Shown here in pieces: positions 761 through 39,042 of a DNA stretch of 64,000 bases. The notes below the pieces were generated by a model, which saw nothing but the letters and a program-made list of their open reading frames with translations, was not told the origin of the DNA and searched no databases. How positions within the stretch are numbered: position 1 is the stretch's first letter; each line of letters starts with the position of its first letter. Both the position numbers and the translations under genes were made by a program. Source of the DNA: Bacteroidaceae bacterium (GTDB lineage: Bacteria > Bacteroidota > Bacteroidia > Bacteroidales > Bacteroidaceae); assembly GCA_017522785.1 (NCBI GenBank), contig JAFWYF010000015.1:124001-188000 (forward strand), given 5' to 3'.

Positions 761-766
761 CAACGT

Positions 767-5157: not shown

Positions 5158-5166
5158 AGTGCTAAA

Positions 5167-6084: not shown

Positions 6085-6109
6085 AATTTTATATATTTTG
6101 TGGTTGATG

Positions 6110-6152: not shown

Positions 6153-6167
6153 GAATATGTTTAATAT

Positions 6168-6875: not shown

Positions 6876-6895
6876 AATCCGGTTTTTAATCGCTA

Positions 6896-6924
6896 CTAAG
6901 ATAGTGATTTTTTAGTTTATACAA
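6896..6924 (-). promoter_or_regulatory. Promoter of the SIMPL gene
   Basis: On the minus strand TTG (6922-6924), 18 bases, then TATCTTAG (6896-6903), one base off the TAnnTTTG consensus, 20 bases ahead of the start codon. Confidence 0.5.
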
Positions 6925-6948
6925 TCTTTTGTGTGCACTTAAGGTGTT

Positions 6949-6996
6949 AATAAAATAGAATAGGATGCGAAATTTCGCATCCTATTCTATTTTATT
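6949..6996 (-). terminator. Perfect 48-base palindromic terminator
   Basis: Twenty-four bases (6949-6972) followed directly by their exact complement (6973-6996), 12 bases after the stop codon of the leftward lipoprotein gene. The arms end in A/T-rich tracts suitable for termination in both directions. Confidence 0.85.
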
Positions 6997-7008
6997 ATCG
7001 TATCAATA

Positions 7009-8706: not shown

Positions 8707-8739
8707 AGTATGTATGTTTTTATTGTTTTTATTTCTGTT

Positions 8740-9621
8740 TTATTCTGCTTTTATCATGTCGTCTGTCGATGTTAGCATGAACTGCCAAACATCGTTGCTA
8801 TCGCTGTTGCTGCCGGGGTTGCGGTATCTTGTAAGAACTCCGTAGATATCAAACTTGCCTTTGGGAATTACGGTGTTTGCGAAATCGGCATATGTGCTCA
8901 TGCGGAACAGTACCTTGTGATTGCCAACATATACGTTGCGCTCGACAGCTGTGTTGGTTTCGCTAATTTGCTCCTCTTCGGGCGCAAAAAGTCTTCTGCC
9001 ATCGGCCTCTTTAAACGATACGCCTTTTAGTACAGCATATATTGGTGCCGAATCCTTATTAGTCTTGTTATCTAGGAATTCTTCTGTTACCTCTAATGGG
9101 GTAAGTTCCTCTTGATTGGTATTAGGTTCTCCAACAATTCTCATGTGGTCTCTGAACTCTTTTTTCGACATACGACCAATCTGGTATTCGGAATACTTTG
9201 CGTTATAGTATTTGATTCCAATTTGTGCAAGACTGCCATATCCGCCAATGAATAAATCTTTGCAACTGATTCTTATACGTTGTCCAATGGGCAGTGTAGC
9301 ATATATACCAACATCGTTCACTCCAATGATGATTGCTCCTGTGGCATCGTTTATAACAATTTGTTTGTAGACATTGCCTGTTTCGTCATTGGCTACTACA
9401 ACACCTTCGATGACAATATCGTCGGTAAATTGTTCATATCCGTTGGACTTAATTGTAGATGCATATTTTACCTTCAAATCTTTGATGGTTGTTGTGGCTT
9501 CTCCAATGTTGTTGTTTCCAATGGGTGGAAACTCCAATGTGGGGTCATCGAAGTTGTTCATGCATGCTGTTGTAGCAAATAGGGATATTGCTAATATAAA
9601 CAGATATTTTATAGTTTTCAT
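8740..9621 (-). CDS. DUF5689 surface lipoprotein
   Basis: A 293-residue lipoprotein with signal peptide ending at Cys20 (FATTAC), followed by an Asn/Asp-rich tether. The body matches the DUF5689 pattern. It has an OB-fold-like core opening DIVIEGVVVANDETGNVYKQIVINDATGAI with the later GQRIRISCKDLFIGGYG segment, then a second half with FRMSTYADFANTVIP and GKFDIYGVLTRYR. DUF5689 proteins are regularly found next to a TonB receptor and an EEP-type nuclease in Bacteroidales. It sits 19 bases after the receptor gene and 33 bases before the OB-like lipoprotein, so the three are probably one operon. Its ligand is unknown. Confidence 0.8.
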   Translation of the reverse strand: MKTIKYLFILAISLFATTACMNNFDDPTLEFPPIGNNNIGEATTTIKDLKVKYASTIKSNGYEQFTDDIVIEGVVVANDETGNVYKQIVINDATGAIIIGVNDVGIYATLPIGQRIRISCKDLFIGGYGSLAQIGIKYYNAKYSEYQIGRMSKKEFRDHMRIVGEPNTNQEELTPLEVTEEFLDNKTNKDSAPIYAVLKGVSFKEADGRRLFAPEEEQISETNTAVERNVYVGNHKVLFRMSTYADFANTVIPKGKFDIYGVLTRYRNPGSNSDSNDVWQFMLTSTDDMIKAE

Positions 9622-9640
9622 ACTTTAATTATTTACATTG

Positions 9641-12280
9641 TTAGAAACGAAGGCCTATATTCAAATATGCGTTGAACGCACTTGCATAGTACAAGAATGG
9701 GTTTTTAGAGAATTTGTATGTTCTATCTTCTCCATCGGAATATTTGTTGTTACGGTTTTGCTCATAACCACCTGTAATCATATTCTCATTGTTTAGAACG
9801 TTGTTGAGCATTAGGTTGATGTTCAAACGTTTGCCACCTCTCAAATTTATGCTCTTTCCTATAGATGCGTCTACCATGAAGCCTCCTTTTCCTTTGAATT
9901 GCGATGGACGTTGTATTTCGGTAACAGTCTCTCCATCGGAACCAATGCCTTCTGTGAGGTTGCCATTTATCTTTAATGTTTCACCAAGACGTGCATAGGG
10001 CGATGCACTGATATATACGCGGTCGTAGTAGTTCACGCTTGCGTTCAGGTACCATCCTTTGATGTTGTAATCTACACCCAAACTCAATGCTGTCAAAGGT
10101 GTTCCATTAATATGTGCTCCTCTCATATACACTTTGTCTTCTGTAGGTTTTGTGTCGCTTTCGCTTATAAAAGAACCATCAACATCGTTCATGTACTCTG
10201 CATTGCCAATGCTACCTACAAAATTGAATGATAGAGATGATGTTGCGTTGTATACAACGGCCAATTCTGCTCCGTAGTGCTGTTTCTCAATACCATTCAT
10301 TGTGAGATATGTAAATTGATTCTCGTTGTCGTTGTAGAATGCCGATAGTTGCACAGCGTTGCTAATCAATGTGTAATATCCGCTAAGTTTAGCCGTTATG
10401 GGGCCATATGCGAAACGGTATGAAATTTCTTGGTTCCATATTCTTTCATTGGTAAGGCCACTGACAAAGTCATTGCGAACACGAGGTGCTATGAATGAGT
10501 TGGCTGCAAGAGGAGCATTCTCCTGAAGACCAAAGCCTGCAGAAATAGTGTTGTTGCCATCGATGTTCCAGTTGAAACCGATTTTTCCACCTCCGCTAAG
10601 GAATTTTGCTGTGCCACTGCTACCTTTTGAATAGTGAACTGCACGACCATTACGCATGTTTCCGTAACGCTCAATTGTAGTTCCTTCGATGTTTGCACCT
10701 GCGTAGAAGAAGAATCCGTCGATATTATGTGTGAATTGTCCGAATAGGTTTGCCTTGTTTACATTAATATCATAGTCGTAGTTGAATACATCACCTTTTT
10801 TGATAATACGATTAGGATTATCAACGTCGTTCATAACCTGTATGTCGTTTATACCAAAATCGCCAATGGAGAACTTGTCAATATCCAATCCATAACTATT
10901 TGAACCTAGCAGGTCGTCGAGGGTCTTGTAGTGCATGCCTTTTGTTGTACCTACATTTATACCTACCATAAATTTGTTGTTCTTGTCTATTTCGTGGTTC
11001 AATACAGAACTTAGGTTAATAGCCATCTGGTCGTTATGACGTTTTTCGATATAGTACAAAGCATCAATACCCGAAGCATTTGCTTGTCTGTTAGCAAAGT
11101 AAAGCTGGTCCCAATTAATCTGACGGTTGCTTTTGCTTGCTTTCCAATAGTTGTAGCTCTCTTGCCAATTTGCAAGCTCATCATCTGTAGGCTCGTAGTT
11201 AAGGTCCCAAACATCGAATTCGGCACTAGGAAGGTTCTTATAATAGTTTGGACGTGGGTCGGCGGCATTACCATTCCAGCCCAATGCTGTTGTTGCATAG
11301 TTTGAATATTTTCCGGCAACCGACGTGGTGAGTTTGGTCTCACGATCTATTTGCCAATCCCATGTGAACAGAACTGTAGGCTCAAATGAAGTAACTACAC
11401 GAGAATTGCGTTTTTCGCCATTCTGGTATCCCCAATAAGGGTTGTAGTAGTGGCTGTTTGCAAGCCAATATGCCTCTTCTGTTGCTGCACCTTGCTGGCC
11501 ACGTTCTGTGGGTGAGCCCCAAGTGGTAATAGAAATAGAGTGGTTGTCATTAATAACTTTTTGCGCGCTCAAGAAATAACCGAATGAGTTGTAGAATGTT
11601 CCTTCAATAACTCCTTCGTTGGCCCAACGGTACGATGCTGAGCCTGTCAAAGCCCAACCGTTATTCATTAATCCTGTTGAATAGGTGTACATTACGCGGG
11701 CTAGGTAGTTACGGTTGCAACCAACAAGTGATAACTTGTGTCCGGCTGCATATTGGCTGGCGCGAGTGTTTATATTGCTTGCTCCACCTATGTTGCTATA
11801 ACCAAAACTGTTGTTCTCCAAGTAGGTTGCACCCTCTTTGTTACGTGTAGCATCGTTCAAACCACCAATCATACCAAAACTGAATGTGCCACGCTCGGCA
11901 TCGTTCATCAACACACCATTCATGTATACATTGTTGTATTGGTTTTCGTATGCTCTAATTCTAAATCTCATTGGGCTGAACAAGTAACCAACTTCCGATA
12001 GGAAATAGTCGTCGTTTGATGAAACCATTGATGATGAACCTTGTATCAGGTCCTCGTCATCATCCAACTGACCTTCGGAAAAGGTAAATGAGTCTTTGTC
12101 ATCATTAGATGCCTGTAACATCTCATTATACTCTCCCAACAACACTGTGTCTTGGGCAAAGCGTAACATGGGATCTCTTTTAATCTCTTTGTTAAGCTTC
12201 ATTTCTTCTTGTGCACTTACTCCTATTGCACTCATGCAACAAAATAGTAATAATGCAAACTTGTTAAAAATGCTTTTCAT
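9641..12280 (-). CDS. TonB-dependent outer-membrane receptor
   Basis: An 879-residue outer-membrane receptor. A signal peptide (cleaved after GVSA) is followed by about 75 acidic residues, a compact plug-like region (SEVGYLFSPMRFRIRAYENQYNNVYMNG is its core) and a long beta-barrel with repeated aromatic-ended strands. The last strand ends in LNIGLRF, the usual C-terminal Phe signature for Bam insertion. It lacks the N-terminal carboxypeptidase-regulatory-like domain of SusC proteins and has no SusD partner. Instead it heads an operon with two OB-fold-like lipoproteins and faces a secreted nuclease gene, so the cargo may be nucleic-acid derived (inference). Confidence 0.88.
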   Translation of the reverse strand: MKSIFNKFALLLFCCMSAIGVSAQEEMKLNKEIKRDPMLRFAQDTVLLGEYNEMLQASNDDKDSFTFSEGQLDDDEDLIQGSSSMVSSNDDYFLSEVGYLFSPMRFRIRAYENQYNNVYMNGVLMNDAERGTFSFGMIGGLNDATRNKEGATYLENNSFGYSNIGGASNINTRASQYAAGHKLSLVGCNRNYLARVMYTYSTGLMNNGWALTGSASYRWANEGVIEGTFYNSFGYFLSAQKVINDNHSISITTWGSPTERGQQGAATEEAYWLANSHYYNPYWGYQNGEKRNSRVVTSFEPTVLFTWDWQIDRETKLTTSVAGKYSNYATTALGWNGNAADPRPNYYKNLPSAEFDVWDLNYEPTDDELANWQESYNYWKASKSNRQINWDQLYFANRQANASGIDALYYIEKRHNDQMAINLSSVLNHEIDKNNKFMVGINVGTTKGMHYKTLDDLLGSNSYGLDIDKFSIGDFGINDIQVMNDVDNPNRIIKKGDVFNYDYDINVNKANLFGQFTHNIDGFFFYAGANIEGTTIERYGNMRNGRAVHYSKGSSGTAKFLSGGGKIGFNWNIDGNNTISAGFGLQENAPLAANSFIAPRVRNDFVSGLTNERIWNQEISYRFAYGPITAKLSGYYTLISNAVQLSAFYNDNENQFTYLTMNGIEKQHYGAELAVVYNATSSLSFNFVGSIGNAEYMNDVDGSFISESDTKPTEDKVYMRGAHINGTPLTALSLGVDYNIKGWYLNASVNYYDRVYISASPYARLGETLKINGNLTEGIGSDGETVTEIQRPSQFKGKGGFMVDASIGKSINLRGGKRLNINLMLNNVLNNENMITGGYEQNRNNKYSDGEDRTYKFSKNPFLYYASAFNAYLNIGLRF

Positions 12281-12553
12281 ATTAATATTATTAAATTTTA
12301 GTCTCTTTTACCGGTGTCTATTTCAGGCGGTTTTTAAAACGACCTACAAAATTGGTAAAATATAATGATATTATAAAATTAAAAATTGTTTTTTTTACGA
12401 AAAAATAAAGTAATTGTATGTATTGCGAAAAAATTATTTCATAACCCTGATTATGCAATATTTTTTTCTTAATTTTACGCAATAAATGTCTTATATGTGC
12501 TATTGTGGCGCGTAAAACATTTAAAATGTTGAGTTTAAATTTATATCTGTTAC

Positions 12554-13597
12554 ATGAAAAGAAATTTTATTTTTCTACTTTTTATATCTCTTTTCTCCAT
12601 GTCGTTTTTGCTAACGGCGCAAGAAAAGCGATACGAGGTTTATAGTGTAGGCTTTTATAACCTCGAAAATTTGTTCGATACTATTCACGACGCAGGAAAA
12701 AATGATTTTGAGTTTCTTCCTCAAGGCGTAAACAAGTGGGGTAGTATGAAATATGTCAATAAATTAAAAAATATGGCGACAGTGCTTCGTGAAATGTCTA
12801 CCGATTTATTACCAATGGGCTTGGCTGCTGTAGGTGTTTCCGAAATAGAAAACAGTCGTGTTTTGAGCGATTTGGTTTCTCATGAGATTCTGGCCGACCG
12901 TAAATGGGATTTTATACATCACGAAGGCCCCGATAAGCGTGGAGTAGATTGTGCTTTGCTATACAATCCAAAATTGTTTAAACCAATCACAAGCAGATTG
13001 GTCCCTTATACAACTGTAGATAATGATACTACATATAAAACACGTGGCTTTCTTACAGTCAGTGGCGAAATGGCTGGTGAAATAGTTCACATAATAGTAA
13101 ATCATTGGCCATCGCGTTATGCGAAATCTCCGGCTCGTGAACGTGCCGGTGTATTGGTTAAAGCGGTAAAAGATTCTCTCATGGCTGCCAACCCATTGTC
13201 AAAAGTAATAATAATGGGAGACATGAATGATGACCCAGATGACAAAAGCATGAAAACTTGTCTGGGTGCTGTTCGTGAACAAAATCAGGTAAAAAAATCT
13301 AGCGATTTATATAATCCATGGTGGAATATATTGCGTAAAAAGGGTGTGGGAACTCTTAAATATCGCGGAAAATGGAATCTATTCGACCAAATTATAATTA
13401 GTGGAAATTTATTGGGTAAAGACCGTTCTTCGCTTAAATTATATAAACCCGAGATATTCTCCCGCAGTTATATGCTACAGCAAGAGGGTAAGTATAAAGG
13501 TTCCCCAAAACGAACTCATGCAAGTGGTGTTTGGCTAAATGGCTACAGCGACCACTTACCCGTTATAGTTTATCTAATTAAGGAGCAGAAACAATGA
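12554..13597 (+). CDS. Secreted endonuclease/exonuclease/phosphatase family protein
   Basis: A 347-residue EEP-fold hydrolase with an N-terminal signal sequence (hydrophobic to SFLLTAQ). Catalytic signatures of DNase I-like enzymes are visible: a metal-binding Glu in AVGVSEIENSRVL, HHEGPDKRGVDCALLYNP, the His in IVNHWPSR, GDMNDDPDD (GDxN motif) and SDHLPVIV near the end (SDH motif). It is expected to cut phosphodiester bonds outside the cytoplasm in a Mg-dependent way. It is divergent from the TonB receptor operon, 273 bases away, and a terminator overlaps its stop codon. DNase, RNase and phosphatase substrates cannot be separated by sequence. Confidence 0.88.
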   Translation: MKRNFIFLLFISLFSMSFLLTAQEKRYEVYSVGFYNLENLFDTIHDAGKNDFEFLPQGVNKWGSMKYVNKLKNMATVLREMSTDLLPMGLAAVGVSEIENSRVLSDLVSHEILADRKWDFIHHEGPDKRGVDCALLYNPKLFKPITSRLVPYTTVDNDTTYKTRGFLTVSGEMAGEIVHIIVNHWPSRYAKSPARERAGVLVKAVKDSLMAANPLSKVIIMGDMNDDPDDKSMKTCLGAVREQNQVKKSSDLYNPWWNILRKKGVGTLKYRGKWNLFDQIIISGNLLGKDRSSLKLYKPEIFSRSYMLQQEGKYKGSPKRTHASGVWLNGYSDHLPVIVYLIKEQKQ

Positions 13598-13610
13598 TTT
13601 CTGCTCCTTA
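13579..13610 (+). terminator. Terminator overlapping the EEP nuclease stop codon
   Basis: A 13-pair perfect stem (13579-13591/13598-13610) with a 6-base loop. The loop contains the TGA stop codon (13595-13597), and T-rich sequence follows. Confidence 0.85.
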
Positions 13611-14007
13611 ATTTATTTAAAAATGTTATCATACGCTCTTTTTTAGTTAATATTATGTTAAAAGGGTTTTGTTTTGATTCGTTTTTAAATAGGATTTATT
13701 TAATTTGTGAAACCATTACAAATTTAAAGTTATTTACTTTTGATTTGTGCATGGTTTAAGATGTTCAGCCCACATTTTATATATGGACTCACATCCATTG
13801 AAAACAACAAGAAAAGTGAAATATTTAACTAAGAAAAACAAAATCTAAACAAAAACAGACAACTGAGAATTAAACTGAAATTTGATTAAACTGAGAAAAC
13901 TAAACTATCTGTATTTTATGGTAATTAATCGCTCTTGGCATCCGTATTTAATATTGGTGCCAAGAGATCTTTATATTTTCAAAGTCTAAATATCTTAACT
14001 TTCTAAC
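13611..14007. other. Gene-free stretch, A-rich, with one possible promoter and hairpin
   Basis: No ORF. A lone TACTTTTG (13735-13742) lacks a well-spaced -33 element. Bases 13790-13910 are very A-rich with imperfect TTAAACTGA repeats. An inverted repeat CTCTTGGCA/TGCCAAGAG (13932-13940/13958-13966) probably ends transcripts of the leftward gene at 14008. A small transcript is possible but weakly supported. Confidence 0.3.
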
Positions 14008-14637
14008 TCAAATTTGTAAATCATTCTCTCTGTTACTATAGAAGTACTCTTCTATCTCCTTGAGCCACATTTTACGTTTTTCGACGCCAACACGTTTCAC
14101 CATATCCAATTTAATCCATTTGCAATTCTCTATGCCAATAACTTTGAATGTGCCTTCATACAGTGCTCTCCAAATGGCATTACCAAAAATGGTTTCATAG
14201 ACATTGGACGGTGTCTCCATTGTACTGATGACTGTAACACGTCGCAATTTTTTAAGTAGCGATTTCATGCTGCCATCTTCATCGTAATTGTATGCAATCT
14301 CGGGAAATATTACTTTGTCTATAAATCCTTTTGTAAGGGCCGGCATAAGCATCCACCATGTTGGGAAAATGAATACAAGGTGCTCGGCTTTTTCCAAACG
14401 CTCTTTGTACTCAATGACTTTTTTGTCCAACATGCCGAGTGCACGTTGTGCATCGTTACGTGCTAATCCAAATGCTTTAAGGTCGTTACTACTCATGACA
14501 GGGTCGAAACCCTCTTTGTCCAAATGTATCAAATCGACCTCTCCATTACTACGTTCTATGCCTAATATAACAGCATCTAAAATGGCATTGCAATAACTAC
14601 CATCGTAGGGGTGATTAAATATAACCAATGTTCTCAT
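14008..14637 (-). CDS. Flavodoxin-fold NAD(P)H oxidoreductase
   Basis: A 209-residue cytoplasmic FMN/FAD enzyme of the Flavodoxin_2 (NQO1/KefF/MdaB-like) family. The N-terminal strand and phosphate loop read LVIFNHPYDGSYCNAILDAV. The flavin-contacting segment LVFIFPTWWMLMPALTKGFIDKV (near residue 90) is the hallmark of the family. It would reduce quinones or nitro/azo compounds by two electrons; the exact substrate is unknown. The first five codons are half of a 16-base inverted repeat whose other arm lies upstream, so read-through mRNA from the phosphate transporter gene would fold over its start codon. Confidence 0.82.
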   Translation of the reverse strand: MRTLVIFNHPYDGSYCNAILDAVILGIERSNGEVDLIHLDKEGFDPVMSSNDLKAFGLARNDAQRALGMLDKKVIEYKERLEKAEHLVFIFPTWWMLMPALTKGFIDKVIFPEIAYNYDEDGSMKSLLKKLRRVTVISTMETPSNVYETIFGNAIWRALYEGTFKVIGIENCKWIKLDMVKRVGVEKRKMWLKEIEEYFYSNRENDLQI

Positions 14638-14680
14638 ACCAAACGTTTTATTTATAAACGTAGATATGAGAACATTGGTT
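14623..14680. repeat. 16-base inverted repeat covering a start codon
   Basis: AACCAATGTTCTCATA (14623-14638) and its exact complement (14665-14680) with 26 bases between. The left arm contains the ATG and codons 2-5 of the flavodoxin-fold gene. An AACGTTTG near-match to the -7 element lies in the loop on the minus strand. Confidence 0.8.
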
Positions 14681-14709
14681 CACTAAATCTTGCTTTCTAT
14701 ATAAATGGA

Positions 14710-16437
14710 TTAACTTATCGCTTTATTGTTTACAGCCTCGGATACATTAATTATATAGTCGCCCATGTGCTCCAGTTCTGTAATGATATCTATGTAGTAA
14801 ACACTGCTTTGGTAGCTTGAACTGTTTTGTTCTATCTTCAATATCTCCTCTTCGCGTAATGTGTTACGCATATTGTTAATCTCAATTTCACAATCTACTG
14901 CATGGCGTAAATCGATGCTCTCTCCCGGCTGTTTCTTTAGGTTCTCAATCATTGCATCGTATGCTTTATCGACCAATTCTATCATGGCATCAATCTTTTC
15001 GACATTCTTGTCTGTGAAACGTTTACCATGTATGTTGCGTCGCGATAATATTCTGCTTATAGATTCTCCTGAATCTCCTAAACTCTCCAACTCGTTTATT
15101 ATTTTGTACATAGTCTTTGTTTGCGTCAATGTGGTATCGCTTATACTCTCTTTGGGAATAGAGTTTAGGAACGATGCTATTTCGTACTCGATGCGGTCGG
15201 CAATTTCCTCGTATTTTACAAGTTTTTTACGATATGTCTCAAATTCATCATCGGTTTGGCTGTGTATAGCCGATTTTATATATCCAAGTCCGTTGCGAGA
15301 AATTTGTGCAAAGTGGATAATCTCATTTTTAGCTTGTCCAATAGCTAGTTCTGCATTACCTACAGGGCCGGCATTTATAAACTTGAGTTTGAATCCTTCC
15401 TCTTCGCTTTGTGGTTTCGACTTAATTGCAAATGTAACAGCCTTCACAATTAGTGGAGTGCACCAAACAAGAATACAGGTATTAATTACATTGAACATTG
15501 TATGCAACATTGATATTCCATATAATGCCGCTGTCGATTCGTTGGAACCACTTACTATGTTTGTGGTGTATACAATATTGGTGGGGTTGGGATAGCCCAT
15601 GAGTGTAATAATCCAACCGATAAATTCCAAAAATAGATGGAAGAATAGTAAAGCCCATATAACACCGAAAATATTGAACAATGTGTGTGCCAATGCTGCA
15701 CGGCGGGCATTTGTGTTACCAACGGCTGCTGCAATGTTGGCTGTTATTGTTGTTCCTATGTTCTCTCCAAGTACCATAGCTGCAGCCATCTCAAATGGTA
15801 ACCATCCCATGCTCAACATAATTAATGTAAGGGCCATAGTAGCACTTGATGATTGAAGTACAAGTGTTAGAACAGTACCAAATACAAGAAATATTATAAC
15901 AGAACCAAATCCATATCCGGTCCATTGGGTGATAAAAGAGAGCACTTCGGGCATCTCACGTAAATCGGGTACTGAGTCTTTCATCATGGCCAATCCAAGG
16001 AATAGCAGTGAGAAACCAATGATAAACTCGCTAAGATTTCTATATTTCTCCTTTTTTGCAATACTCATAACAAAACCTATTGCCATGAGTGGCACTGCAA
16101 GTACCGATATATCCATCTTGAAACCGAGCCAAGAAACAAGCCATGCAGTAACAGTTGTTCCTATGTTTGCTCCCATAATTACACCAATGGCTTGTGTCAG
16201 TGTCAGTAGTCCGGCATTAACGAAACCTACTACCATGACAGTGGTTGCACTCGACGATTGTATTACTCCTGTAATACCTACACCGGTCATTACTCTTTTA
16301 AACGTGTTCGAGGTCATTGCTGCAAGAAGATTACGCATGCGGTCTCCGGCTACTTTTTGGAGTCCCGAACTCATAATATTCATTCCATATAGGAACATTC
16401 CAAGTGCTCCTATAAGTGTTAAAACTTGTAGTATCAT
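14710..16437 (-). CDS. Na/Pi cotransporter family protein with PhoU-like C-terminus
   Basis: A 575-residue inner-membrane phosphate transporter. Two inverted Na/Pi-cotransport repeats are visible by their QSSSAT motifs: GVIQSSSATTVMVVGFV near residue 60 and LVLQSSSATMALTLIML near residue 200, each followed by a GANIGTT or GENIGTT motif. Residues about 350-575 form a helical PhoU-like domain. The family imports phosphate with sodium (type II); the C-terminal domain probably regulates this. It stands alone, upstream of the flavodoxin-fold gene on the same strand and 73 bases from it; that gap contains the inverted repeat. Confidence 0.9.
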   Translation of the reverse strand: MILQVLTLIGALGMFLYGMNIMSSGLQKVAGDRMRNLLAAMTSNTFKRVMTGVGITGVIQSSSATTVMVVGFVNAGLLTLTQAIGVIMGANIGTTVTAWLVSWLGFKMDISVLAVPLMAIGFVMSIAKKEKYRNLSEFIIGFSLLFLGLAMMKDSVPDLREMPEVLSFITQWTGYGFGSVIIFLVFGTVLTLVLQSSSATMALTLIMLSMGWLPFEMAAAMVLGENIGTTITANIAAAVGNTNARRAALAHTLFNIFGVIWALLFFHLFLEFIGWIITLMGYPNPTNIVYTTNIVSGSNESTAALYGISMLHTMFNVINTCILVWCTPLIVKAVTFAIKSKPQSEEEGFKLKFINAGPVGNAELAIGQAKNEIIHFAQISRNGLGYIKSAIHSQTDDEFETYRKKLVKYEEIADRIEYEIASFLNSIPKESISDTTLTQTKTMYKIINELESLGDSGESISRILSRRNIHGKRFTDKNVEKIDAMIELVDKAYDAMIENLKKQPGESIDLRHAVDCEIEINNMRNTLREEEILKIEQNSSSYQSSVYYIDIITELEHMGDYIINVSEAVNNKAIS

Positions 16438-16554
16438 ATTATATATTTAGAATTTGTTATTGTTAAAGTGTTTATTTTTAATAATAGATGTCGGCTGTCT
16501 GCTAAACAAATATTGCAGATGAGCCGTTGATTTAGGCCGATGATAAAGAGAGGG

Positions 16555-17020: not shown

Positions 17021-19039
17021 CTATTTCTTTTCTTTCAGCAACTCTTGTAGTTTAAACATTTCATCGCGGTATTGTGCAGCTTCTATAAAGTTCATCTTGT
17101 CTGCGGCATCCTGCATGAGTCGTCGGGTACGTGCGATGCTCTTTTCGAGTTGCTCTTTGCTCATATACTTTACAATTGGGTCGCATGCAATAGCCGGTTG
17201 CATGGTCTCTTCGCTGTATATTTTGGCCGGTGTGTTTTCTCTCTTTTCTTGTACAAGAGCATTGGCAATCTGCTTCTTTATTTGTGTCGGAGTTATTCCG
17301 TTTGCTTCGTTATATGCAATCTGCTTCTCTCTACGTCTGTTAGTCTCATCTATGGTTTTTTGCATACTGGCAGTAATCTTTTCGGCATAAAATATGACCA
17401 ATCCATTTATGTTGCGTGCTGCACGTCCCGCAGTCTGTGTCAATGAGCGATGGCTACGTAAGAAACCCTCTTTGTCGGCATCCATGATAGCTACAAGAGA
17501 TACTTCGGGCAGGTCCAACCCTTCTCGTAATAGGTTTACTCCAATCAATACATCGTATAATCCTTCGCGCAGGTCTGTCATTATTTGAATTCTGTCGAGA
17601 GTCTCCACATCGCTGTGTATGTAGTTGCAACGCACTCCATTCTTTTGCAGGTACTCGGTAAGTTCTTCGGCCATACGCTTTGTGAGTGTAGTAACCAATA
17701 CTCGTTCATCGCGTTCGCAACGTTGCTGTATCTCTTCCATTAAATCGTCTACTTGGTTCTTGCTACTACGAACTTCAATTATTGGGTCTAATAGCCCAGT
17801 GGGGCGAATAAGTTGTTCTACAACCACTCCTTCGCTTTTTTGTAGCTCATAATCGTCGGGAGTGGCACTAACGTATATAACTTGATTGGTAAGTTCTTCG
17901 AACTCTTCGAATTTCAGTGGGCGGTTGTCGAATGCGGCAGGCAGACGAAAACCGAATTCTACAAGATTACTCTTTCGTGCGCGGTCTCCACCATACATTG
18001 CATGTATTTGTGGAACGCTTACGTGGCTCTCATCTATAATAAGTAGAAAATCTTCTGGAAAAAAATCGAGCAAACAGTAGGGGCGTGTTCCGGGCTCTCG
18101 TCCGTCGAAGTAACGGGAGTAGTTCTCAATGCCGGAGCAGTGTCCTAATTCACGTAACATCTCAGTGTCGTATGTTACACGCTCGTGTAATCGTTTTGCT
18201 TCAAATGGTTTACCAATCTCTTTAAAATAGTCTACGCGCTCGGCAAGGTCTTTTTCAATTTCGGAAATAGCACGTAAAGTGCTCTCCTTTGTTGTCATGA
18301 ATAGGTTTGCCGGGTAAATTTTGTATTCTTCAAAATCTGTTATACGCACGCCTGTTTGTGGGTCAATTTCCTCAATTCCATCAATCTCGTCGTCCCAGAA
18401 AGTTATTCGAAGAACATGGTCGCTGTATGCTAAACTAACTTCAACGGTGTCGCCTTTCACACGAAATGCACCTCTATTTAGTTCAAGGTCGTTTCGTACA
18501 TACAAACTGCTAACCAATGAGCGTAAAAAGACATTTCGGTCGAGCTTCATGCCCATTCTTACGTCAATAACATTATTGTAGAAATCGGCCGGATTGCCCA
18601 TACCATATATGCACGATACCGATGACACAACTACAACGTCTTTACGTCCCGATAGCAGTGCCGATGTTGCAGATAATCGCAATTTGTCTATTTCGTCATT
18701 TATAGCAAGGTCTTTCTCTATGTATGTGTCAGTCGATGGAATATATGCTTCGGGTTGGTAGTAGTCGTAGTACGATACATAGTATTCAACAGCATTGTTT
18801 GGGAAGAAGCCCTTAAACTCGTTGTAGAGCTGTGCCGCCAACGTTTTATTGTGGCTTAGTATGAGTGTTGGCTTGTTTATCTCTTTTATGACATTGGCAA
18901 TGGTAAATGTTTTACCCGAACCGGTAACGCCAAGCAGTGTTTGTGCCGGCATTCCACTCTTTATTCCATCGACAAGTTGTGCGATAGCCTCTGGTTGGTC
19001 TCCGGTGGGTGAATAGTCCGATATCAGTTGAAATTTCAT
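17021..19039 (-). CDS. uvrB: Excinuclease ABC subunit B
   Basis: The DNA-damage verification helicase of nucleotide excision repair, 672 residues, full length. Walker A is GVTGSGKT (37-44). The beta-hairpin that probes the DNA appears as YYVSYYDYYQPEAYIPSTD. The Walker B/DEAD-like box is IDESHVSVPQ, helicase motif VI appears as SLTQTAGRAARN, and a UvrC-interacting UVR coiled coil forms the last 40 residues. No uvrA or uvrC is adjacent. A -7 element (TACCTTTG on the minus strand, 19114-19121) lies 75 bases upstream. No LexA-type box was recognised. Confidence 0.97.
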   Translation of the reverse strand: MKFQLISDYSPTGDQPEAIAQLVDGIKSGMPAQTLLGVTGSGKTFTIANVIKEINKPTLILSHNKTLAAQLYNEFKGFFPNNAVEYYVSYYDYYQPEAYIPSTDTYIEKDLAINDEIDKLRLSATSALLSGRKDVVVVSSVSCIYGMGNPADFYNNVIDVRMGMKLDRNVFLRSLVSSLYVRNDLELNRGAFRVKGDTVEVSLAYSDHVLRITFWDDEIDGIEEIDPQTGVRITDFEEYKIYPANLFMTTKESTLRAISEIEKDLAERVDYFKEIGKPFEAKRLHERVTYDTEMLRELGHCSGIENYSRYFDGREPGTRPYCLLDFFPEDFLLIIDESHVSVPQIHAMYGGDRARKSNLVEFGFRLPAAFDNRPLKFEEFEELTNQVIYVSATPDDYELQKSEGVVVEQLIRPTGLLDPIIEVRSSKNQVDDLMEEIQQRCERDERVLVTTLTKRMAEELTEYLQKNGVRCNYIHSDVETLDRIQIMTDLREGLYDVLIGVNLLREGLDLPEVSLVAIMDADKEGFLRSHRSLTQTAGRAARNINGLVIFYAEKITASMQKTIDETNRRREKQIAYNEANGITPTQIKKQIANALVQEKRENTPAKIYSEETMQPAIACDPIVKYMSKEQLEKSIARTRRLMQDAADKMNFIEAAQYRDEMFKLQELLKEKK

Positions 19040-20806: not shown

Positions 20807-23800
20807 ATGAGAAAAAAACTATTGTACTTTTATGCAAATGCATTATTGCTTGTTCTGTTTGTTGGGTCTTTTTTACCGGCAAATGCAGTTGAACCACCGT
20901 TGATGGGGTGGAGTTCGTGGAATGCCTATGGCTTTAAAATCAGTGAATCGGTTATTAAAGCACAAGCCGATGCTATGGTCGATTTAGGTTTCTACGCAAA
21001 GGGCTATAATCATATAAATATCGATGATGGCTTTTTCGGTGGCAGGGACGAGAATGGGAAATTAAAAATACATCCCGAACGTTTCCCTAACGGCATGCGT
21101 ACAATTGTCGATTATATTCATGCAAAAGGATTAAAAGCCGGAATATATTCCGATGCAGGATGTAATACTTGTGCTTCGTATTGGGGCGAACCAAAAGATG
21201 AAATAGGAATAGGTGTGGGCCTTTATGGCCACGATGATCAGGATATGGAACTCTATTTTAATGAATTTGATTTCGATTTTATTAAGATAGATTATTGTGG
21301 CGCCGATGCTCGAAACAATGCCGACAAACTCGACCTAGATGTTGAACTGCGTTATAAAGAGATATACGAGGCCATAAAAAAGACCGGCAGAGACGATATT
21401 ACATGGAATATATGTCGTTGGGCTTTTCCCGGAACTTGGGCGTGCGAAATAGCAAATTCATGGCGTACAACAGAGGATATCTACTTGGGTTGGGCTTCGG
21501 TCAAGAGTATTATAAACCAAAGTCTCTATCTGTCGGCCTATACCGGTGGTGGCCATTACAACGATATGGATATGCTTGAGGTTGGACGTGGCATGAGTGA
21601 AGAGGAGGATAAGACTCATTTCGGTATGTGGTGTATAATGAGTTCTCCACTGCTTATTGGTTGCGACCTTAACGATATCAAAGGAGATGCTTTGTCGCTT
21701 ATGCAAAACGAGGAATTGATTGCTCTTAATCAGGATGCACTAGGTTTGCAGGCATACGTCGTGAAAAAAGAAAACAACTCCTATGTACTTGTTAAAGATA
21801 TTGAAACTCTGAATGGTAATAAACGTGCAGTAGCGTTTTATAATCCTTCCGATGCTGAAGCAACCATCTCTGTTGATTTTATGCAACTCGATCTCTATGG
21901 TAGTGTGAAAGTGCGCGACCTGTTCGAGAAAAAAGATTTAGGCATGAAAACCGAAGGTATGACAGTTACGTTGCCTGCACATGGTACACGCATATATAAA
22001 TTGGAAGCTGAAAGACGTTTGGAACGAGTAATTTATGAGGCAGAAACAGCATGGTTGACATCTTATCAGGAATTGGAGGAGGACCCGACAATATCGGAAA
22101 CAGCTATATATAATAGCGATGAAAATTGTTCAGGTGGCATGAAGGCTTCTTGGCTTGGTAATGCAGACGATAATGATTTGCAATGGCGTAATGTCTTTAG
22201 TGAGAATGGTGGCGATTACACCATGACGCTAGCTTTTATAACGGGTGATTCACGTACAACCAAAATCTCGGTAAACGATGAGGCTCCAATAGAGGTTTCT
22301 CTAAACTCAGGCTCATGGAGCACAGTTGTTACAAAAGATGTAGAGATTAAATTGAAGAAAGGTAACAACGTAATTCGTCTCTATAACGAAAATGGTTGGA
22401 TGCCCGACTTCGATTATATGAAATTGACCTCACATGATAATCCTCGTCCTAATGGTGATTATCCAATTGTTGTGGAAAAGTCGCAAAAATATACACATGC
22501 TTCACGTAGACTAAACGGTATTTCGTTAAATGGCTCTAAAGATGGTAGCCAGTCAATCTCATTGTCGTCGAACTATATATATAACAAAATTGATGACAAG
22601 GTGTTCACAGCACGTGCCGGTGAAACATTGTCGCCTACATTCAATTTTACAACAGATTGGATGAATGGCTACGTATACCTAGATTGTGGCATGGATGGTG
22701 AGTTTAATGCTGAATTAGGAACAAACGGTTCTATTCCTGCCGGTAGCGATATAATGGCATATTCTCATTTCGAAGGATATAATAGTACAGGTGTAGCAAC
22801 ATCAAGTGGTAACGTGATTAATCCTCCCTCGTTTACACTGCCTGCCGACATGAAATCGGGTGTATACAGAATGAGATATAAAGTGGATTGGGATTATATT
22901 GACCCTGCAGGTCGTTCCGAGGATGGAAACGGTATCATCAAAAATGGTGGTGCAATAGTTGATGTATGCTTAAATATCCACACCGAAAATTGTAATATTA
23001 AAGCAACTGCAAATAACGGAGCAATTACAACAGTCGATGGAAATGCTGTGAATGGTTTGGTGCACCCATTTGGTAAACCTCTTACAGTTAAACTGACCCC
23101 CGACAATGGATATATGTGCGATGCAATAAGCATACGTCATGGACATAATCTCGATGGTGAAAGATATATCCATGGTGTTGCACAATATAACGAAATTGTT
23201 GTTCCGGCATATCTTATAAATAATAATAGTTATGAGATACCGGCAGAAATATTAGATGGTGATGTTGAGATTGTGGCACATTTTGCCAAAAGTGTCGAAG
23301 ATGAAGCTGTTGGCGAATATGCACTCTCTTTCGATAAAAATACAAAAACTCCGAATGAGGCAATAGCCTCTGTAGGTGCAGTAATTAACGTTGATAAAGG
23401 AATTGACAAAACAATTACTCTCCCGGCAACAGCTACAACTGTGTATAATTATCTTGAAACGGAATTAGCTGTACGTTCCGGAGCAGAGGTGGATGTGAAA
23501 ATAGATGTCGATGCACCATATCACTACTATTTTTATGTCGATCTTAACAATGACGGCAAATTTACTGCTCTTTTGAACGACGATGGTCTGCCTTCCTATT
23601 CTAGTGAGTTGCTGTCATTTACATACTATAATGGCAAAAATAGTGCCGGCGATGTTATAGTGGAAACTGCTTATAGTTCGCAACTTCCTCTATTTACGGT
23701 TTCTACATTGTTGCCAAACGGAATATATCGTGCGCGTATAAAGGCCGATAGAAACGATGTAAATCCTGCCGGTTCTAAATCAATTGTAGAAGATGGCGGT

Positions 23801-25093
23801 GTGGTAGTGGATTTCCTATTGAATGTTTATAGCGAAAGTGTAAATGTCAATTTGTATACATCAAATGGTAATATCTACTATTCAAATGGCGATGCAATAC
23901 CCATGACTGTTACTGCATTCAATTCGCTCGATGTTAAATCTGTGCCCGTAAAAGGTTTTGAACTAAAAGAACTAAAGGTTCGTCATGGATATAACTTAGA
24001 TGGTCCTCAGTTTGTGAATGGTAATCGTCAGTGGAAAGAATTTACACCCGATGCAGAAACATTTACAATACCGTCGGATTGTGTGAATGGTTCTCTTGAG
24101 GTGTATGCAAATTATAAGTCGGGAGCCAATACAGAATATCGTCTTGTCTTTAACGACGAATTTGATTCAGCCGACGGTACACAACCTGTTTCCGACAAAT
24201 GGATACGTTGTACTCGTATGGGCTCAACATGGAATCGTTGGCTTTCGGATAGCGAAGAGGTGGTTTATATAGAAGATGGTAAACTTGTTACACGTGCAAT
24301 ACCCAATCCCGACACTGCAACAGATGATGTTCCAATGATTACAGGAGGTATTAAATCGAATACTAGGTTTGCTTTTACCTATGGATATGTCGAGGGACGT
24401 ATACTTACCAATCCTTGGGTTGGCAACTTCCCTGCTTTTTGGATGATGCCAGAGAGCCAGCCTTTGGGATGGCCCAGAGATGGCGAGATTGATATTTTTG
24501 AATCTATAGATGGAGAGAATCGTGCATGGCATACTGTTCACTCTAATTGGACTTGGAACCTTGGTAATAAAAACAACCCTAAGTCGAGTTACGATGAGTA
24601 TGTGAATCTCGACCGTTACCATACTTACGGCTTGGAGTGGAACGAAAGTGCTCTCATTTGGTATGTCGATGGAAAAGAGGTCGGGCGATATGAAAAATCT
24701 ACTAATCAACAGACGTTAGAAAACGGGCAATGGCCTTTCAATCATCATTTCCATTTGATACTAAACCAAAGTGTTGGTAATGGTTCATGGGCGAAGAATC
24801 CCGACTTATCACACACCTATGAAACTCTTTTCGATTGGGTACGAGTATATCAAAAGGATGGAATGAGCAATACAAATGGAACAGTTGGCGTTGAATATGT
24901 TTCAGAAGAGAATGGAATTAATGTAAGTGCAGTAGATGGCGGTGTACTTCTTTCTGTTGAACAGCCACAACTTGTTCGCCTGTTTGATGTGATGGGACGC
25001 AATTTGTTTGAGTCTGTTGTAGATAGCTCTGTAACAATTCCATTAGAACGTGGATTCTATTTGGTTAATGGCATAAAAATATATGTAAAGTAA
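20807..25093 (+). CDS. Multidomain secreted glycosidase: GH27 + CBM + two GEVED-type repeats + GH16
   Basis: A 1428-residue exported enzyme with two catalytic modules. After a signal peptide (cleaved after ANA) comes a GH27 alpha-galactosidase barrel (about 28-400): opening PPLMGWSSWNAYG, nucleophile D162 in FIKIDYCG, acid/base D255 in YNDMDMLEVG. Residues about 405-540 look like a CBM35-type module (RVIYEAETAWLTS). Two tandem units follow, each a GEVED-like domain (YVYLDCGMDGEFN; FYVDLNNDGKFT) plus a segment with RHGHNLDG or RHGYNLDG. A GH16 domain (about 1108-1360) has the active site GEIDIFE with E1227 and E1232. The last 60 residues resemble a type IX sorting tail (RLFDVMGRNLFE). Possible substrates are alpha-Gal-capped galactans or mucin polyLacNAc (inference). 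Confidence 0.88.
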   Translation: MRKKLLYFYANALLLVLFVGSFLPANAVEPPLMGWSSWNAYGFKISESVIKAQADAMVDLGFYAKGYNHINIDDGFFGGRDENGKLKIHPERFPNGMRTIVDYIHAKGLKAGIYSDAGCNTCASYWGEPKDEIGIGVGLYGHDDQDMELYFNEFDFDFIKIDYCGADARNNADKLDLDVELRYKEIYEAIKKTGRDDITWNICRWAFPGTWACEIANSWRTTEDIYLGWASVKSIINQSLYLSAYTGGGHYNDMDMLEVGRGMSEEEDKTHFGMWCIMSSPLLIGCDLNDIKGDALSLMQNEELIALNQDALGLQAYVVKKENNSYVLVKDIETLNGNKRAVAFYNPSDAEATISVDFMQLDLYGSVKVRDLFEKKDLGMKTEGMTVTLPAHGTRIYKLEAERRLERVIYEAETAWLTSYQELEEDPTISETAIYNSDENCSGGMKASWLGNADDNDLQWRNVFSENGGDYTMTLAFITGDSRTTKISVNDEAPIEVSLNSGSWSTVVTKDVEIKLKKGNNVIRLYNENGWMPDFDYMKLTSHDNPRPNGDYPIVVEKSQKYTHASRRLNGISLNGSKDGSQSISLSSNYIYNKIDDKVFTARAGETLSPTFNFTTDWMNGYVYLDCGMDGEFNAELGTNGSIPAGSDIMAYSHFEGYNSTGVATSSGNVINPPSFTLPADMKSGVYRMRYKVDWDYIDPAGRSEDGNGIIKNGGAIVDVCLNIHTENCNIKATANNGAITTVDGNAVNGLVHPFGKPLTVKLTPDNGYMCDAISIRHGHNLDGERYIHGVAQYNEIVVPAYLINNNSYEIPAEILDGDVEIVAHFAKSVEDEAVGEYALSFDKNTKTPNEAIASVGAVINVDKGIDKTITLPATATTVYNYLETELAVRSGAEVDVKIDVDAPYHYYFYVDLNNDGKFTALLNDDGLPSYSSELLSFTYYNGKNSAGDVIVETAYSSQLPLFTVSTLLPNGIYRARIKADRNDVNPAGSKSIVEDGGVVVDFLLNVYSESVNVNLYTSNGNIYYSNGDAIPMTVTAFNSLDVKSVPVKGFELKELKVRHGYNLDGPQFVNGNRQWKEFTPDAETFTIPSDCVNGSLEVYANYKSGANTEYRLVFNDEFDSADGTQPVSDKWIRCTRMGSTWNRWLSDSEEVVYIEDGKLVTRAIPNPDTATDDVPMITGGIKSNTRFAFTYGYVEGRILTNPWVGNFPAFWMMPESQPLGWPRDGEIDIFESIDGENRAWHTVHSNWTWNLGNKNNPKSSYDEYVNLDRYHTYGLEWNESALIWYVDGKEVGRYEKSTNQQTLENGQWPFNHHFHLILNQSVGNGSWAKNPDLSHTYETLFDWVRVYQKDGMSNTNGTVGVEYVSEENGINVSAVDGGVLLSVEQPQLVRLFDVMGRNLFESVVDSSVTIPLERGFYLVNGIKIYVK

Positions 25094-25390: not shown

Positions 25391-26206
25391 ATGAAAAACG
25401 TTTTTTATATATCATTTTTTGTGTTACTCTTCTTTACATCTTGTTATAGCAGATATAACAAGGTGCAGAAAAGTACCGATGTGGAATATAGATACGAAGT
25501 GGCGAAAGAATACTATCTTGAAGGAGATTACTCAAAGGCAACCCCAATTTTAGAGAGCACTATAGCATTCCTTAAAGGAAGTGATAAAGGCGAAGAGTCG
25601 CTGATAATGTTGGCTATGTGCTACTATGAGTCGGGCGACTATTCTACAGCAGCACAATATTTTAAAACATTTTATACCAATTATCAGCGTAGCGAATACA
25701 CAGAATTGGCACGTTTCTACTCTGGGAAATCTCTGTTTAAAGGTATCTTAGAACCAGAACTAGACCAAACCGATACATTTACAGCAATTCAGGAATTACA
25801 GCTGTTCATGGAGTATTTTCCAACAAGCAGTTACAAAGACGAAGCTCAACAGATGCTTTTTGATATGCACGATGTGATAGTTAAAAAGGATTATCTTTCG
25901 GCTAAACTCTACTATGAACTGGGTAGTTATATGGCATATAAAGGTAATAACTATTTGGCTTGTATAATTACAGCTCAAAATGCATTGAACGACTATCCTT
26001 ACACTTCGTTGCGCGAAGAACTTTTGATACTTATATTGCGCGCTAAATATAAGATGGCATTTCATAGTATAGAAGATAAAAAGATAGATAGATATCGCGA
26101 AACTGTAGATGAATATTACTCTTTTAAAAATGAGTTCCCAACAAGTAAGTATTTAAAAGAGGCTAATGAATATTACAAAGAATCGCTCGAAGTGGTAAAT
26201 GAATAA
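25391..26206 (+). CDS. bamD: Outer membrane assembly lipoprotein BamD
   Basis: An essential lipoprotein of the BAM complex that works with BamA to insert beta-barrel proteins; 271 residues. The lipobox ends at Cys18 (FFTSC). Five TPR-like helical pairs follow, for example YEVAKEYYLEGDYSKATPILE and LAMCYYESGDYSTAAQYFKTFYTNYQRSEY, the pattern of the YfiO/BamD family. It begins a three-gene set with rpoZ (41 bases downstream) and a DUF4293 gene, an arrangement that recurs in Bacteroidales. It has its own promoter with both elements about 100 bases upstream. Confidence 0.93.
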   Translation: MKNVFYISFFVLLFFTSCYSRYNKVQKSTDVEYRYEVAKEYYLEGDYSKATPILESTIAFLKGSDKGEESLIMLAMCYYESGDYSTAAQYFKTFYTNYQRSEYTELARFYSGKSLFKGILEPELDQTDTFTAIQELQLFMEYFPTSSYKDEAQQMLFDMHDVIVKKDYLSAKLYYELGSYMAYKGNNYLACIITAQNALNDYPYTSLREELLILILRAKYKMAFHSIEDKKIDRYRETVDEYYSFKNEFPTSKYLKEANEYYKESLEVVNE

Positions 26207-37269: not shown

Positions 37270-39042
37270 ATGAGTAAATATCCAAAAATCGGTATTCGCC
37301 CTACAATCGATGGACGTCAGGGTGGTGTAAGAGAGAGTCTCGAAGAGAAAACAATGAATTTGGCAAAGGCTGTTGCCGAACTCATCTCAAATAATGTGAA
37401 ATATGCCGACGGCAAGCCTGTTGAGTGTGTTATTGCAGATGGTACTATTGGTAGAGTAGGTGAAAGTGCCGCATGTGCAGCTAAATTTGAGCGTGAGGGG
37501 GTAGGTGCTACTATATCTGTAACATCGTGCTGGTGCTATGGCTCAGAAACAATGGATATGAATCCTCATTGGCCAAAGGCTGTTTGGGGCTTCAATGGAA
37601 CAGAGCGTCCCGATGCTGTATATCTTGCCGCTGTGTTGGCAGGACATGCTCAAAAAGGTCTTCCGGCATTTGGCATATATGGACACGATGTGCAAGACCT
37701 CGATGATAATACAATACCAGCCGATGTGCAAGAGAAAATCTTGCGTTGGGCACGTGCTGCAGTTGCTGTAGCTCAAATGCGTGGCGAGAGTTATCTTTCA
37801 ATTGGTAGCCAATGTATGGGTATTGCAGGTAGTATTGTCGATCAGAACTTCTTCCAAGAGTATCTTGGTATGCGCAACGAAAGCGTTGATGAAACAGAAA
37901 TCCTAAGAAGAATGGAAGAGGGCATTTACGACCACGAAGAGTATGCCAAAGCTATGGCATGGACCGAGAAATATTGTAAGCCCAATGAGGGTTGGGACAA
38001 GAATCGTCCTGAAAAACAGAAAGACCGTGCAGGAAAAGATTCCGATTGGGAGTTTGTTGTTAAAATGACACTCATTGTTCGCGACCTTATGCTCGGAAAT
38101 CCAAAATTGCGCGAAATGGGCTTTAAAGAGGAGGCTATAGGTCATAATGCGTTGGCAGCAGGTTTCCAAGGACAGCGTCAATGGACCGATTGGAAGCCTA
38201 ATGGCGACTTTACCGAAGCTTTGATGTGCAGTACTTTCGACTGGAACGGTATACGCGAAGCCTATGTTCTTGCAACAGAAAATGATGCTTGCAATGCTGT
38301 TGCCATGCTCTTTGGTAAATTGCTCACCGGGTGTGGACAAATGTTCTCGGATGTTCGTACATATTGGAGTCCCGAGGCTGTTAAGCGTGTAACAGGCAAG
38401 GAACTAACTGGTATTGCATCTAACGGAATGATTCATCTTATAAACTCGGGTGCAACAACACTCGATGCCACCGGTGCAAGTACTAATGATGCCGGTGAAC
38501 CTTGCATGAAACCATGTTGGGAAATGACAGATAAGGATGTTGATGCTTGTCTAAAGAATACTAACTGGATGCCTGCCGACCGAGACTATTTCCGCGGTGG
38601 TGGTTTCTCTTCTAACTTCTTGTCGAAGGGTGGTATGCCTGTTACAATGAGCCGCCTGAATCTAATCAAAGGTCTTGGACCAGTGTTACAGATTGCCGAA
38701 GGTTGGACTGCCGATGTAGACCCCGAAATACATGAGGTGTTGAATATGCGTACCGACCCAACTTGGCCCACAACATGGTTTGTGCCACGTTTGTGCGATA
38801 AGGCTCCATTCAAAGATGTTTATTCGGTTATGAACTATTGGGGAGCAAATCATGGCGCTATAAGCTATGGACATATAGGTGCCGACTTAATAACCCTTGC
38901 ATCTATCTTACGTATTCCTGTATGCATGCATAATGTGGATGAAGATAAGATATTCCGTCCTGCGGCATGGAATGCATTTGGAATGGATAAAGAGGGTGCC
39001 GATTATCGTGCTTGCCAAAACTATGGTCCAATCTATAAATAA
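37270..39042 (+). CDS. fucI: L-fucose isomerase
   Basis: A 590-residue cytoplasmic Mn-dependent ketol isomerase that converts L-fucose (and D-arabinose) to the ketose. Typical segments are [21 protein letters not shown] at the start, [32 protein letters not shown], and the active-site region with Glu and Asp in [20 protein letters not shown]. The metal-binding His region is [15 protein letters not shown] near the C-terminus. Length is normal. It is the first gene of fucI-mutarotase-fucP; fuculokinase and aldolase, usually nearby in Bacteroides, are missing from this window. Confidence 0.96.

Follow-up and report, generated by a model that had tools for sequence, protein, structure and literature searches.

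O-glycanases initiate mucin breakdown by human gut bacteria, and in the systems described so far, to our knowledge, the chain caps are removed by separate exo-enzymes. Among the closest described systems are the GH16_3 endo-O-glycanases BACCAC_03717 (6T2R), BACCAC_02680 (6T2O) and BF4060 (6T2S) (Crouch et al. 2020, PMC7419316; PDB codes are paired with enzyme names by elimination from that paper). The GH27 enzyme Amuc_1187 of the mucin degrader Akkermansia cleaves linear Galα1,3Gal and no blood-group structure (PMC11790493). In Bifidobacterium bifidum, the GH123–GH33 protein SiaBb3 carries two ordered glycosidases in one mucin-active polypeptide (PMC12856340).

We analysed a 64,000-nucleotide stretch (the window) from a gut bacterium in a lineage of the ruminant hindgut, in which a single gene encodes both a GH27 and a GH16 domain. 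We give a probability of about 0.62 to the reading that its product is a secreted or surface mucin enzyme of the polyLacNAc endo-O-glycanase type, with an exo-α-galactosidase fused in front, uncapping and then cutting the chain. Among the titles and abstracts listed by searches of an open-access library, none describes a GH27–GH16 fusion protein.

Domain architecture and predicted export

The open reading frame begins with ATG, has a single stop and encodes 1428 amino acids. The features of the locus are as follows.

17021..19039, minus strand: uvrB, left marker of a conserved chromosomal address
20807..25093, plus strand: whole gene, GH27–CBM35-like–(GEVED–RHG)x2–GH16–CTD, 1428 aa (ORF, Pfam, relatives)
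20807..20887, plus strand: predicted Sec signal peptide, residues 1-27, …LPANA/VEPP (read from the sequence by eye)
20888..22006, plus strand: GH27 barrel and C-terminal β-sandwich, residues 28-400 (Pfam, PDB sequence matches, alignment, fold match); nucleophile D162 (21290), acid/base D224 (21476), D73/D74, invariant C203-R204-W205
22028..22432, plus strand: CBM35/CBM6-like β-sandwich, residues 408-542 (sub-threshold Pfam, confident all-β model, conserved in relatives)
22454..22987, plus strand: GEVED domain 1, residues 550-727 (Pfam, unit alignment)
22988..23290, plus strand: RHG-NLDG domain 1, residues 728-828, a small all-β spacer (structure model, unit alignment)
23309..23842, plus strand: GEVED domain 2, residues 835-1012 (Pfam, unit alignment)
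23843..24115, plus strand: RHG-NLDG domain 2, residues 1013-1103 (relatives, structure model, unit alignment)
24116..24862, plus strand: predicted GH16 endo-glycanase domain, residues 1104-1352 (Pfam, PDB ranking, tree, fold, alignment); E1227 (24485), D1229, E1232 (24500), platform tryptophans W1212 and W1222
24884..25090, plus strand: putative C-terminal sorting-type domain, T9SS-like, residues 1360-1428 (conserved, β-rich)
25391..26206, plus strand: BamD/YfiO-like gene, right marker of the conserved address

The first-pass annotation had read GH27, CBM35-like, duplicated GEVED and GH16 modules in this one protein, and both Pfam (Melibiase_2, E=7e-47; Melibiase_C, 1e-12; Glyco_hydro_16, 1e-16; GEVED, 2e-9 in two stretches) and an alignment of the repeated units agree. 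When aligned with each other over 280 residues, the GEVED-RHG units at 22454-23290 and 23309-24115 are 28% identical (E=1e-36). The label "CBM35-like" fits as originally worded, because the CBM_35 score lies under the curated cut-off (19.7 vs 28 bits). Elsewhere in the window, at 47719-52773, there is a GH123–sialidase protein with a layout similar to that of SiaBb3.

The predicted signal peptide lacks a lipobox cysteine. The C-terminal domain is conserved in relatives and β-rich in the model, and it has no NCBIfam CTD match at E up to 1. The genome encodes a type IX translocon (SprA_N match, E 2e-199). From its signal peptide and C-terminal domain, together with the SprA match, we infer that the protein is a T9SS cargo that would pass through Sec and then type IX export to the surface or outside. 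The CBM35-like and GEVED-RHG modules could serve as spacers or binders that keep both active sites near mucin. GEVED has been described as an adhesin-associated domain (PMC10952558), and a catalytic role for it was therefore rejected. Among relatives, an RHG domain is kept beside GH16 in a short form of the protein and in a form joined to GH84.

The GH16 domain

The jelly-roll domain has the intact ExDxxE site previously claimed for it, and E1227, D1229 and E1232 are invariant in 31 aligned sequences. By sequence, tree and predicted structure, its nearest solved relative is 6T2R, the Bacteroides caccae polyLacNAc endo-O-glycanase. The top four of 35 matches in the PDB sequence ranking are Bacteroides O-glycanase structures (6t2r, 1.9e-32; 6t2s, 6t2o and 6t2p, about 1e-23); the best-placed laminarinase follows at 1e-22. 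In a tree whose O-glycanase branch comprised three reference sequences, with Amuc_0724 left out, the GH16 clade and all three references split from the laminarinases (support 0.994), and the clade joins 6T2R and its relatives (support 0.859). A fold search that covered chiefly the GH16 portion of an 884-residue model gave 6t2r as the best match (Z 34.2, with 237 residues superposed at rmsd 1.5 Å) and a laminarinase as the second (Z 30.2, rmsd 2.0 Å). Sequence rank, tree and predicted structure place the domain as O-glycanase-like within GH16_3, the outcome that the first-pass annotation had said would favour mucin. The domain is neither laminarinase- nor agarase-like.

By homology to 6T2R, the GH16 domain would cut the internal β1,4 bond after Gal in [3Galβ1,4GlcNAcβ1] repeats, so that each product would carry Gal at its newly formed reducing end. 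An alternative is attack on plant polysaccharides, with GH27 removing α-Gal or β-L-Arap substituents while GH16 cuts β1,3-glucan or β1,3-galactan. The breadth of GH16_3, which takes in laminarinases, is consistent with this, as is the very weak laminarin activity of BACCAC_03717 (PMC7419316); the separate grouping of our GH16 from laminarinases argues against it.

Algal galactans had also been suggested as targets, and there is an NCBIfam kappa-carrageenase match, far sub-threshold at 45 vs 350 bits. Yet W1212 and W1222 are the alignment counterparts of 6T2O W129 and W138, the Trp platforms for the β1,3 bond at subsites -1/-2, and such platforms are reported missing from GH16 enzymes other than those with β-glucanase and O-glycanase activities (PMC7419316). 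The carrageenase fold match is also poorer (Z 22.4 vs 34.2 for 6t2r), and none of the best relatives has a marine habitat. It is thus very improbable that the protein depolymerizes agar, porphyran or carrageenan.

The GH27 domain and the chain cap

The GH27 galactose pocket (DD pair, K, R, CxW) was found together with the Asp nucleophile and Asp acid/base; D162 and D224 are conserved in relatives, as the earlier reading of these two residues would have it. The best solved relatives are the β-L-arabinopyranosidase 3A21 of Streptomyces avermitilis (E 8.5e-71) and the rice α-galactosidase 1UAS (E 1.8e-68; rmsd 1.7 Å to the predicted fold). Every compared galactose-pocket residue of the rice enzyme is kept except a Glu, replaced by R204. 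This Arg occupies the human E203 / rice CEW position in 66/66 sequences of the GH27 group; the Glu, common but not universal in GH27, is absent here. 3A21 has Asn there, and the position is therefore variable within GH27. From its fold and catalytic residues, the domain is probably a retaining α-galactosidase.

We infer that it would strip terminal linear α-Gal, of the Galα1,3Gal type, from capped LacNAc; such a cap is the best candidate target. Blood group B, proposed at first, is unlikely: Amuc_1187 spares blood-group structures (PMC11790493) and the B antigen was undetected in the cattle gut (PMC2699481). The proposal of α-Gal-capped polyLacNAc of mucin fared better, in that the GH16 placement and the genome, operon and partner context speak for it, but its cap is opposed by one study that found no α-Gal on the epithelium of the distal bovine gut (PMC2699481).

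That absence also favours a reading in which GH16 is a polyLacNAc O-glycanase while GH27 acts on a different α-galactoside (Galα1,4Gal, Galα1,3GalNAc, a glycolipid or dietary α1,6-Gal), so that the fusion would provide co-secretion and not sequential attack. GH27 enzymes are broad, with Amuc_1187 acting on globotriose too (PMC11790493), and congeners also carry both halves as unlinked genes. Against this, the GH27 of the hindgut clade differs from forestomach relatives by fixed changes adjoining the catalytic residues (Y163, E223, W126, W200), which suggest retuning, their direction not being indicated. We regard co-secretion for separate substrates as unlikely, though it is the most probable rival to sequential uncapping and cutting.

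The nearest forestomach relatives of GH27 (~61% identical) adjoin genes for plant side-chain enzymes (GH43, GH51-type, GH2), and a plant substrate is therefore possible. This is countered by D74, an Asp where 3A21 has Glu.

Relatives, genome context and known systems

The same architecture was found elsewhere, uninterrupted in about 17 of 37 congeneric genomes (57-62% identity), with a shorter version in three more. The fusion is thus no artefact of chimeric assembly or of the reading frame. Three forms occupy the uvrB–bamD address, namely the full GH27 fusion, a short GH27 fusion and a form with no partner; in other species the gene found there encodes GEVED2–GH16 by itself, or else the short form. 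Away from this address, congener G007 joins the same GH16 to a GH84 β-N-acetylglucosaminidase, with a GH2 β-galactosidase next. In L040, a gene for a GH84-GH2 protein precedes the fused gene by about 35 bp. In 11 relatives a GH29-type fucosidase is directly followed by the GEVED2-GH16 gene, and two of these have the cluster's downstream gene, typed as a sulfatase in L049.

The small genome (2.1 Mb) has a mucin-oriented enzyme set, with five BNR sialidase matches, six GH20, two GH29, two GH84 and GH123, and also encodes four sulfatase-family proteins and one M60-like peptidase. The host-glycan reading gains from the GH84 partner of the same GH16 in G007, the fucosidase beside the GH16 gene in 11 relatives and this enzyme set; oligosaccharides released by the fusion could be finished by the GH20, GH84, fucosidase, sialidase and GH123 enzymes. 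Plant polysaccharide attack gains from the herbivore-gut origin of the relatives, but GH26 was looked for in the genome and not found, host-glycan enzymes are many, and the GH84 and fucosidase linkages also count against it. GH16-bearing forms come from the hindgut in 21/21 cases and GH27-only forms from hindgut (11) and forestomach (17), a hindgut link that is not independent of phylogeny; no GH16-bearing form was found in forestomach samples. Overall, we consider a plant target quite improbable.

Neither the GH27 nor the GH16 tree sorts fused from stand-alone forms, and deep support is weak in both. The junction that the fused forms have in common points to a single early fusion that was later split, and G009 resembles a split of the fused gene; repeated fusion may have occurred instead. 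In phage collections the GH27 and GH16 matches were all distant, and none was a fusion. Tentatively, and with less than even confidence, we propose that this herbivore-hindgut genus builds its polyLacNAc depolymerases by a modular "swap" system, in which one O-glycanase GH16 is recombined with GH27 (against an α-galactose cap), with GH84 (against β-GlcNAc) or with no partner, and that the resulting single-polypeptide processors suit α-Gal-capped non-primate mucins. If true, combining the two activities in one protein would offer a ready means to analyse or trim α-Gal-capped glycans and would show the adaptation of hindgut bacteria to non-primate host mucins. The natural variants (alone, GH27-linked, GH84-linked) permit a direct test of whether exo-endo linkage speeds mucin attack.

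Like the GH16_3 O-glycanases, its nearest sequence and fold relatives, our GH16 has ExDxxE and the tryptophan platforms, and it shares an LGxxNNPK loop with 6T2R. However, it is about 30% identical to 6T2R, forms its own well-supported clade and lies towards the end of a 1428-residue chain that also bears GH27, CBM35-like and GEVED modules and a T9SS-type terminus. Unlike many known O-glycanases, this protein is not a lipoprotein, which we counted against the main reading. The GH27 domain differs from the human and rice enzymes, which both have Glu, by its invariant R204, and neither 3A21 nor 1UAS is linked to GH16. By family and role it is likened to Amuc_1187, for which removal of linear α-Gal from mucin glycans was proposed (PMC11790493), but here it is fused to an endo-enzyme. 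As in SiaBb3, two glycosidases would act in order from one polypeptide; SiaBb3 pairs two exo-enzymes on the Sda antigen (PMC12856340), whereas the protein described here is predicted to pair an exo- with an endo-enzyme.

Domain architecture and its distribution in the genus

Features of the window and, where a locus is named, of related contigs
20807-25093 (+), GH27–CBM35-like–GEVED–GH16 gene, one reading frame of 1428 residues
21416, GH27 residue R204, Arg at the human E203 position, invariant in the GH27 group
1600-6120 (-), cluster resembling sialic-acid use genes (NanM-like epimerase, MFS transporter, GlcNAc 2-epimerase, DHDPS/NanA-family lyase)
37270-39042, L-fucose isomerase
47719-52773 (+), GEVED, GH123 and BNR sialidase protein, 1684 aa (GH123 Pfam 5e-96)
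53142-54764, GH20
Locus L111 (contig C25 of the window's own genome), 6365-10319, GH29-type fucosidase, then an 806-aa protein
Locus L148 (congener G007), 8198-16458, GH84–lectin–RHG–GH16 gene with adjoining lectin–GH2 β-galactosidase

Pfam identifies GH27 (Melibiase_2, 7e-47; Melibiase_C, 1e-12), two GEVED stretches and GH16 (1e-16) in the fusion, together with a CBM_35 match that scores under the cut-off. The two GEVED–RHG units align over 280 residues at 28% identity (E 1e-36), and by this alignment they are true repeats of one another. AlphaFold models of residues 28-544 (pLDDT 91.9) and 545-1428 (pLDDT 89.5) are both confident. Congeneric genomes encode the same architecture, unbroken, at about 60% identity, thus excluding chance and assembly error. 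The first-pass annotation, which had described these domains as parts of one protein, was therefore right. The copy in locus L004 (G032:C30:7088-11368) has an in-frame TAA within the matched stretch, yet its open frame keeps every domain; the TAA probably sits just upstream of the true start.

The architecture recurs elsewhere: the full fusion is present in 17 of the 37 genomes of the genus and a short GH27–CBM35–RHG–GH16 form in three, while the remaining genomes encode GEVED2–GH16 alone, GH27–CBM35 alone, or both as unlinked genes (counted by hand, with some frames cut by contig ends). The conserved site between uvrB (17021-19039, -) and a BamD/YfiO-like gene (25391-26206, +) holds the full fusion in the window and loci L033 and L037, the GH27-less form in L044, and the short form in L056, L142 and L143; the GH27-less form also adjoins uvrB in L041 and L045. 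At a different address in G007, a GH16 71% identical to that of the fusion is joined to GH84, ricin-type lectin and RHG domains, and a GH2 β-galactosidase comes next. In locus L040, the fused gene lies about 35 bp behind a GH84–lectin–GH2 protein. Unlike the arrangement in G007, GH84 and GH2 are fused to one another there (151-7068). Both activities would be expected where LacNAc chains are the target, GH84 for the GlcNAc and GH2 for the Gal; a β-glucan or algal galactan would give little reason for a GH84 partner.

Placement of the GH16 and GH27 domains

With the whole GH16 domain as query, four Bacteroides O-glycanase sequences from Crouch et al. 2020 (PMC7419316) took ranks 1-4 among 35 solved relatives, headed by 6t2r (1.9e-32; best laminarinase 1e-22), which corresponds to BACCAC_03717 by elimination from the list in that paper. 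The tree comprised the present clade, 6T2R, 6T2O/6T2S, five laminarinase/glucanase references and a further eight GH16 domains of Bacteroidales, without Amuc_0724 (6t2n). In this tree the present clade, 6T2R and 6T2O/6T2S split from the laminarinases (several of which span the catalytic core only) with support of 0.994, and the present clade groups with 6T2R and its relatives (0.859). The predicted structure matches 6t2r with Z 34.2 (rmsd 1.5 Å, 237 residues); the second-best match is a laminarinase (Z 30.2, rmsd 2.0). Thus the subfamily, which the first-pass annotation had left to phylogeny, is O-glycanase-like by sequence rank, tree and predicted fold. E1227, D1229, E1232 and both platform tryptophans are invariant; the tryptophan pair has been associated with a β1,3 linkage spanning subsites -1 and -2 (PMC7419316).

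The GH27 nucleophile (D162), acid/base (D224) and galactose pocket (D73, D74, Y114, K160, C203, W205, R220, D253 and D255) are as in rice α-galactosidase. The compared positions differ only at R204, an Arg invariant in 66 sequences, where the rice enzyme has Glu. At the position of D74 (Asp), the Streptomyces β-L-arabinopyranosidase 3A21 has Glu. Relative to forestomach sequences about 61% identical, the hindgut GH27 group has fixed differences next to its catalytic residues: Y163 follows the nucleophile and E223 precedes the acid/base, and W126, W200, A166 and L227 are fixed as well. These differences hint at an altered aglycone site. The Akkermansia GH27 Amuc_1187 cleaves globotriose as well as Galα1,3Gal/GalNAc and leaves blood-group structures uncut (PMC11790493). 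By analogy within the family, linear α-Gal would therefore be a likelier target than blood group B.

Genomic context and wider relatives

The genome (2.1 Mb, 98.6% complete) encodes one GH16, five BNR sialidase hits, six GH20, two GH29, two GH84, two GH123, four sulfatase-family proteins and one M60-like peptidase; no GH26 mannanase was found in it. Window frames 9641-12280 (-, 879 aa) and 62241-63977 (-, 578 aa) have no Pfam match. GH123 domains within open frames of about 1670-1710 aa were repeatedly seen across the genus.

Eleven relatives, Prevotellamassilia included and most apparently outside the genus, carry a GEVED2–GH16 gene with an added N-terminal β-sandwich-like region, and in every case the gene directly before it encodes a GH29-type fucosidase, at distances of -34 to 26 bp. 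Loci L049 and L052 have a further gene downstream, from a single cluster, which in L049 is typed as a sulfatase. The L111 fucosidase is orthologous to that of the relatives (55-65% identity), and its 806-residue neighbor has their β-sandwich-like, GEVED and RHG regions without GH16; the locus looks like the fucosidase–O-glycanase pair with something else in place of the GH16 end.

Stand-alone GH27–CBM35 genes from the forestomach adjoin GH43, GH51-type and GH2 genes, and thus a plant-glycan setting may be the origin of the GH27 half. Grouped by the gut site at which the relatives were sampled, GH16-bearing forms are from the hindgut in 21 of 21 cases and GH27-only forms from the hindgut in 11 and the forestomach in 17 (Fisher p 7e-6, which overstates independence because genomes share ancestry).

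Proposed mechanism and comparison with known enzymes

The analysis establishes the domain composition of the fusion, the integrity of both active sites, its family assignments and its genomic context. SprA, a protein of the type IX translocon, is encoded in the genome, in keeping with the signal peptide and C-terminal domain of the fusion, although no CTD model matched this domain. We propose that the protein would be exported by the T9SS, that GH27 would take off a linear α-Gal cap and GH16 would cut polyLacNAc internally, and that the benefit of fusion would be the proximity of both enzymes. Among the targets suggested by the first-pass annotation, mucin is favored by the predicted O-glycanase placement and the host-glycan gene context. 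Blood group B is not, given the specificity of Amuc_1187, nor are algal galactans (kappa-carrageenase fold Z 22.4, against 34.2 for 6t2r).

The fusion is a new variant within a known enzyme kind and comes with a conserved, informative set of natural variants. B. bifidum SiaBb3, in which GH123 and GH33 are joined, removes the Sda antigen in order (PMC12856340). The window protein at 47719-52773 has a similar layout, and SiaBb3 offers a precedent for joined mucin enzymes such as we propose for the GH27–GH16 fusion.
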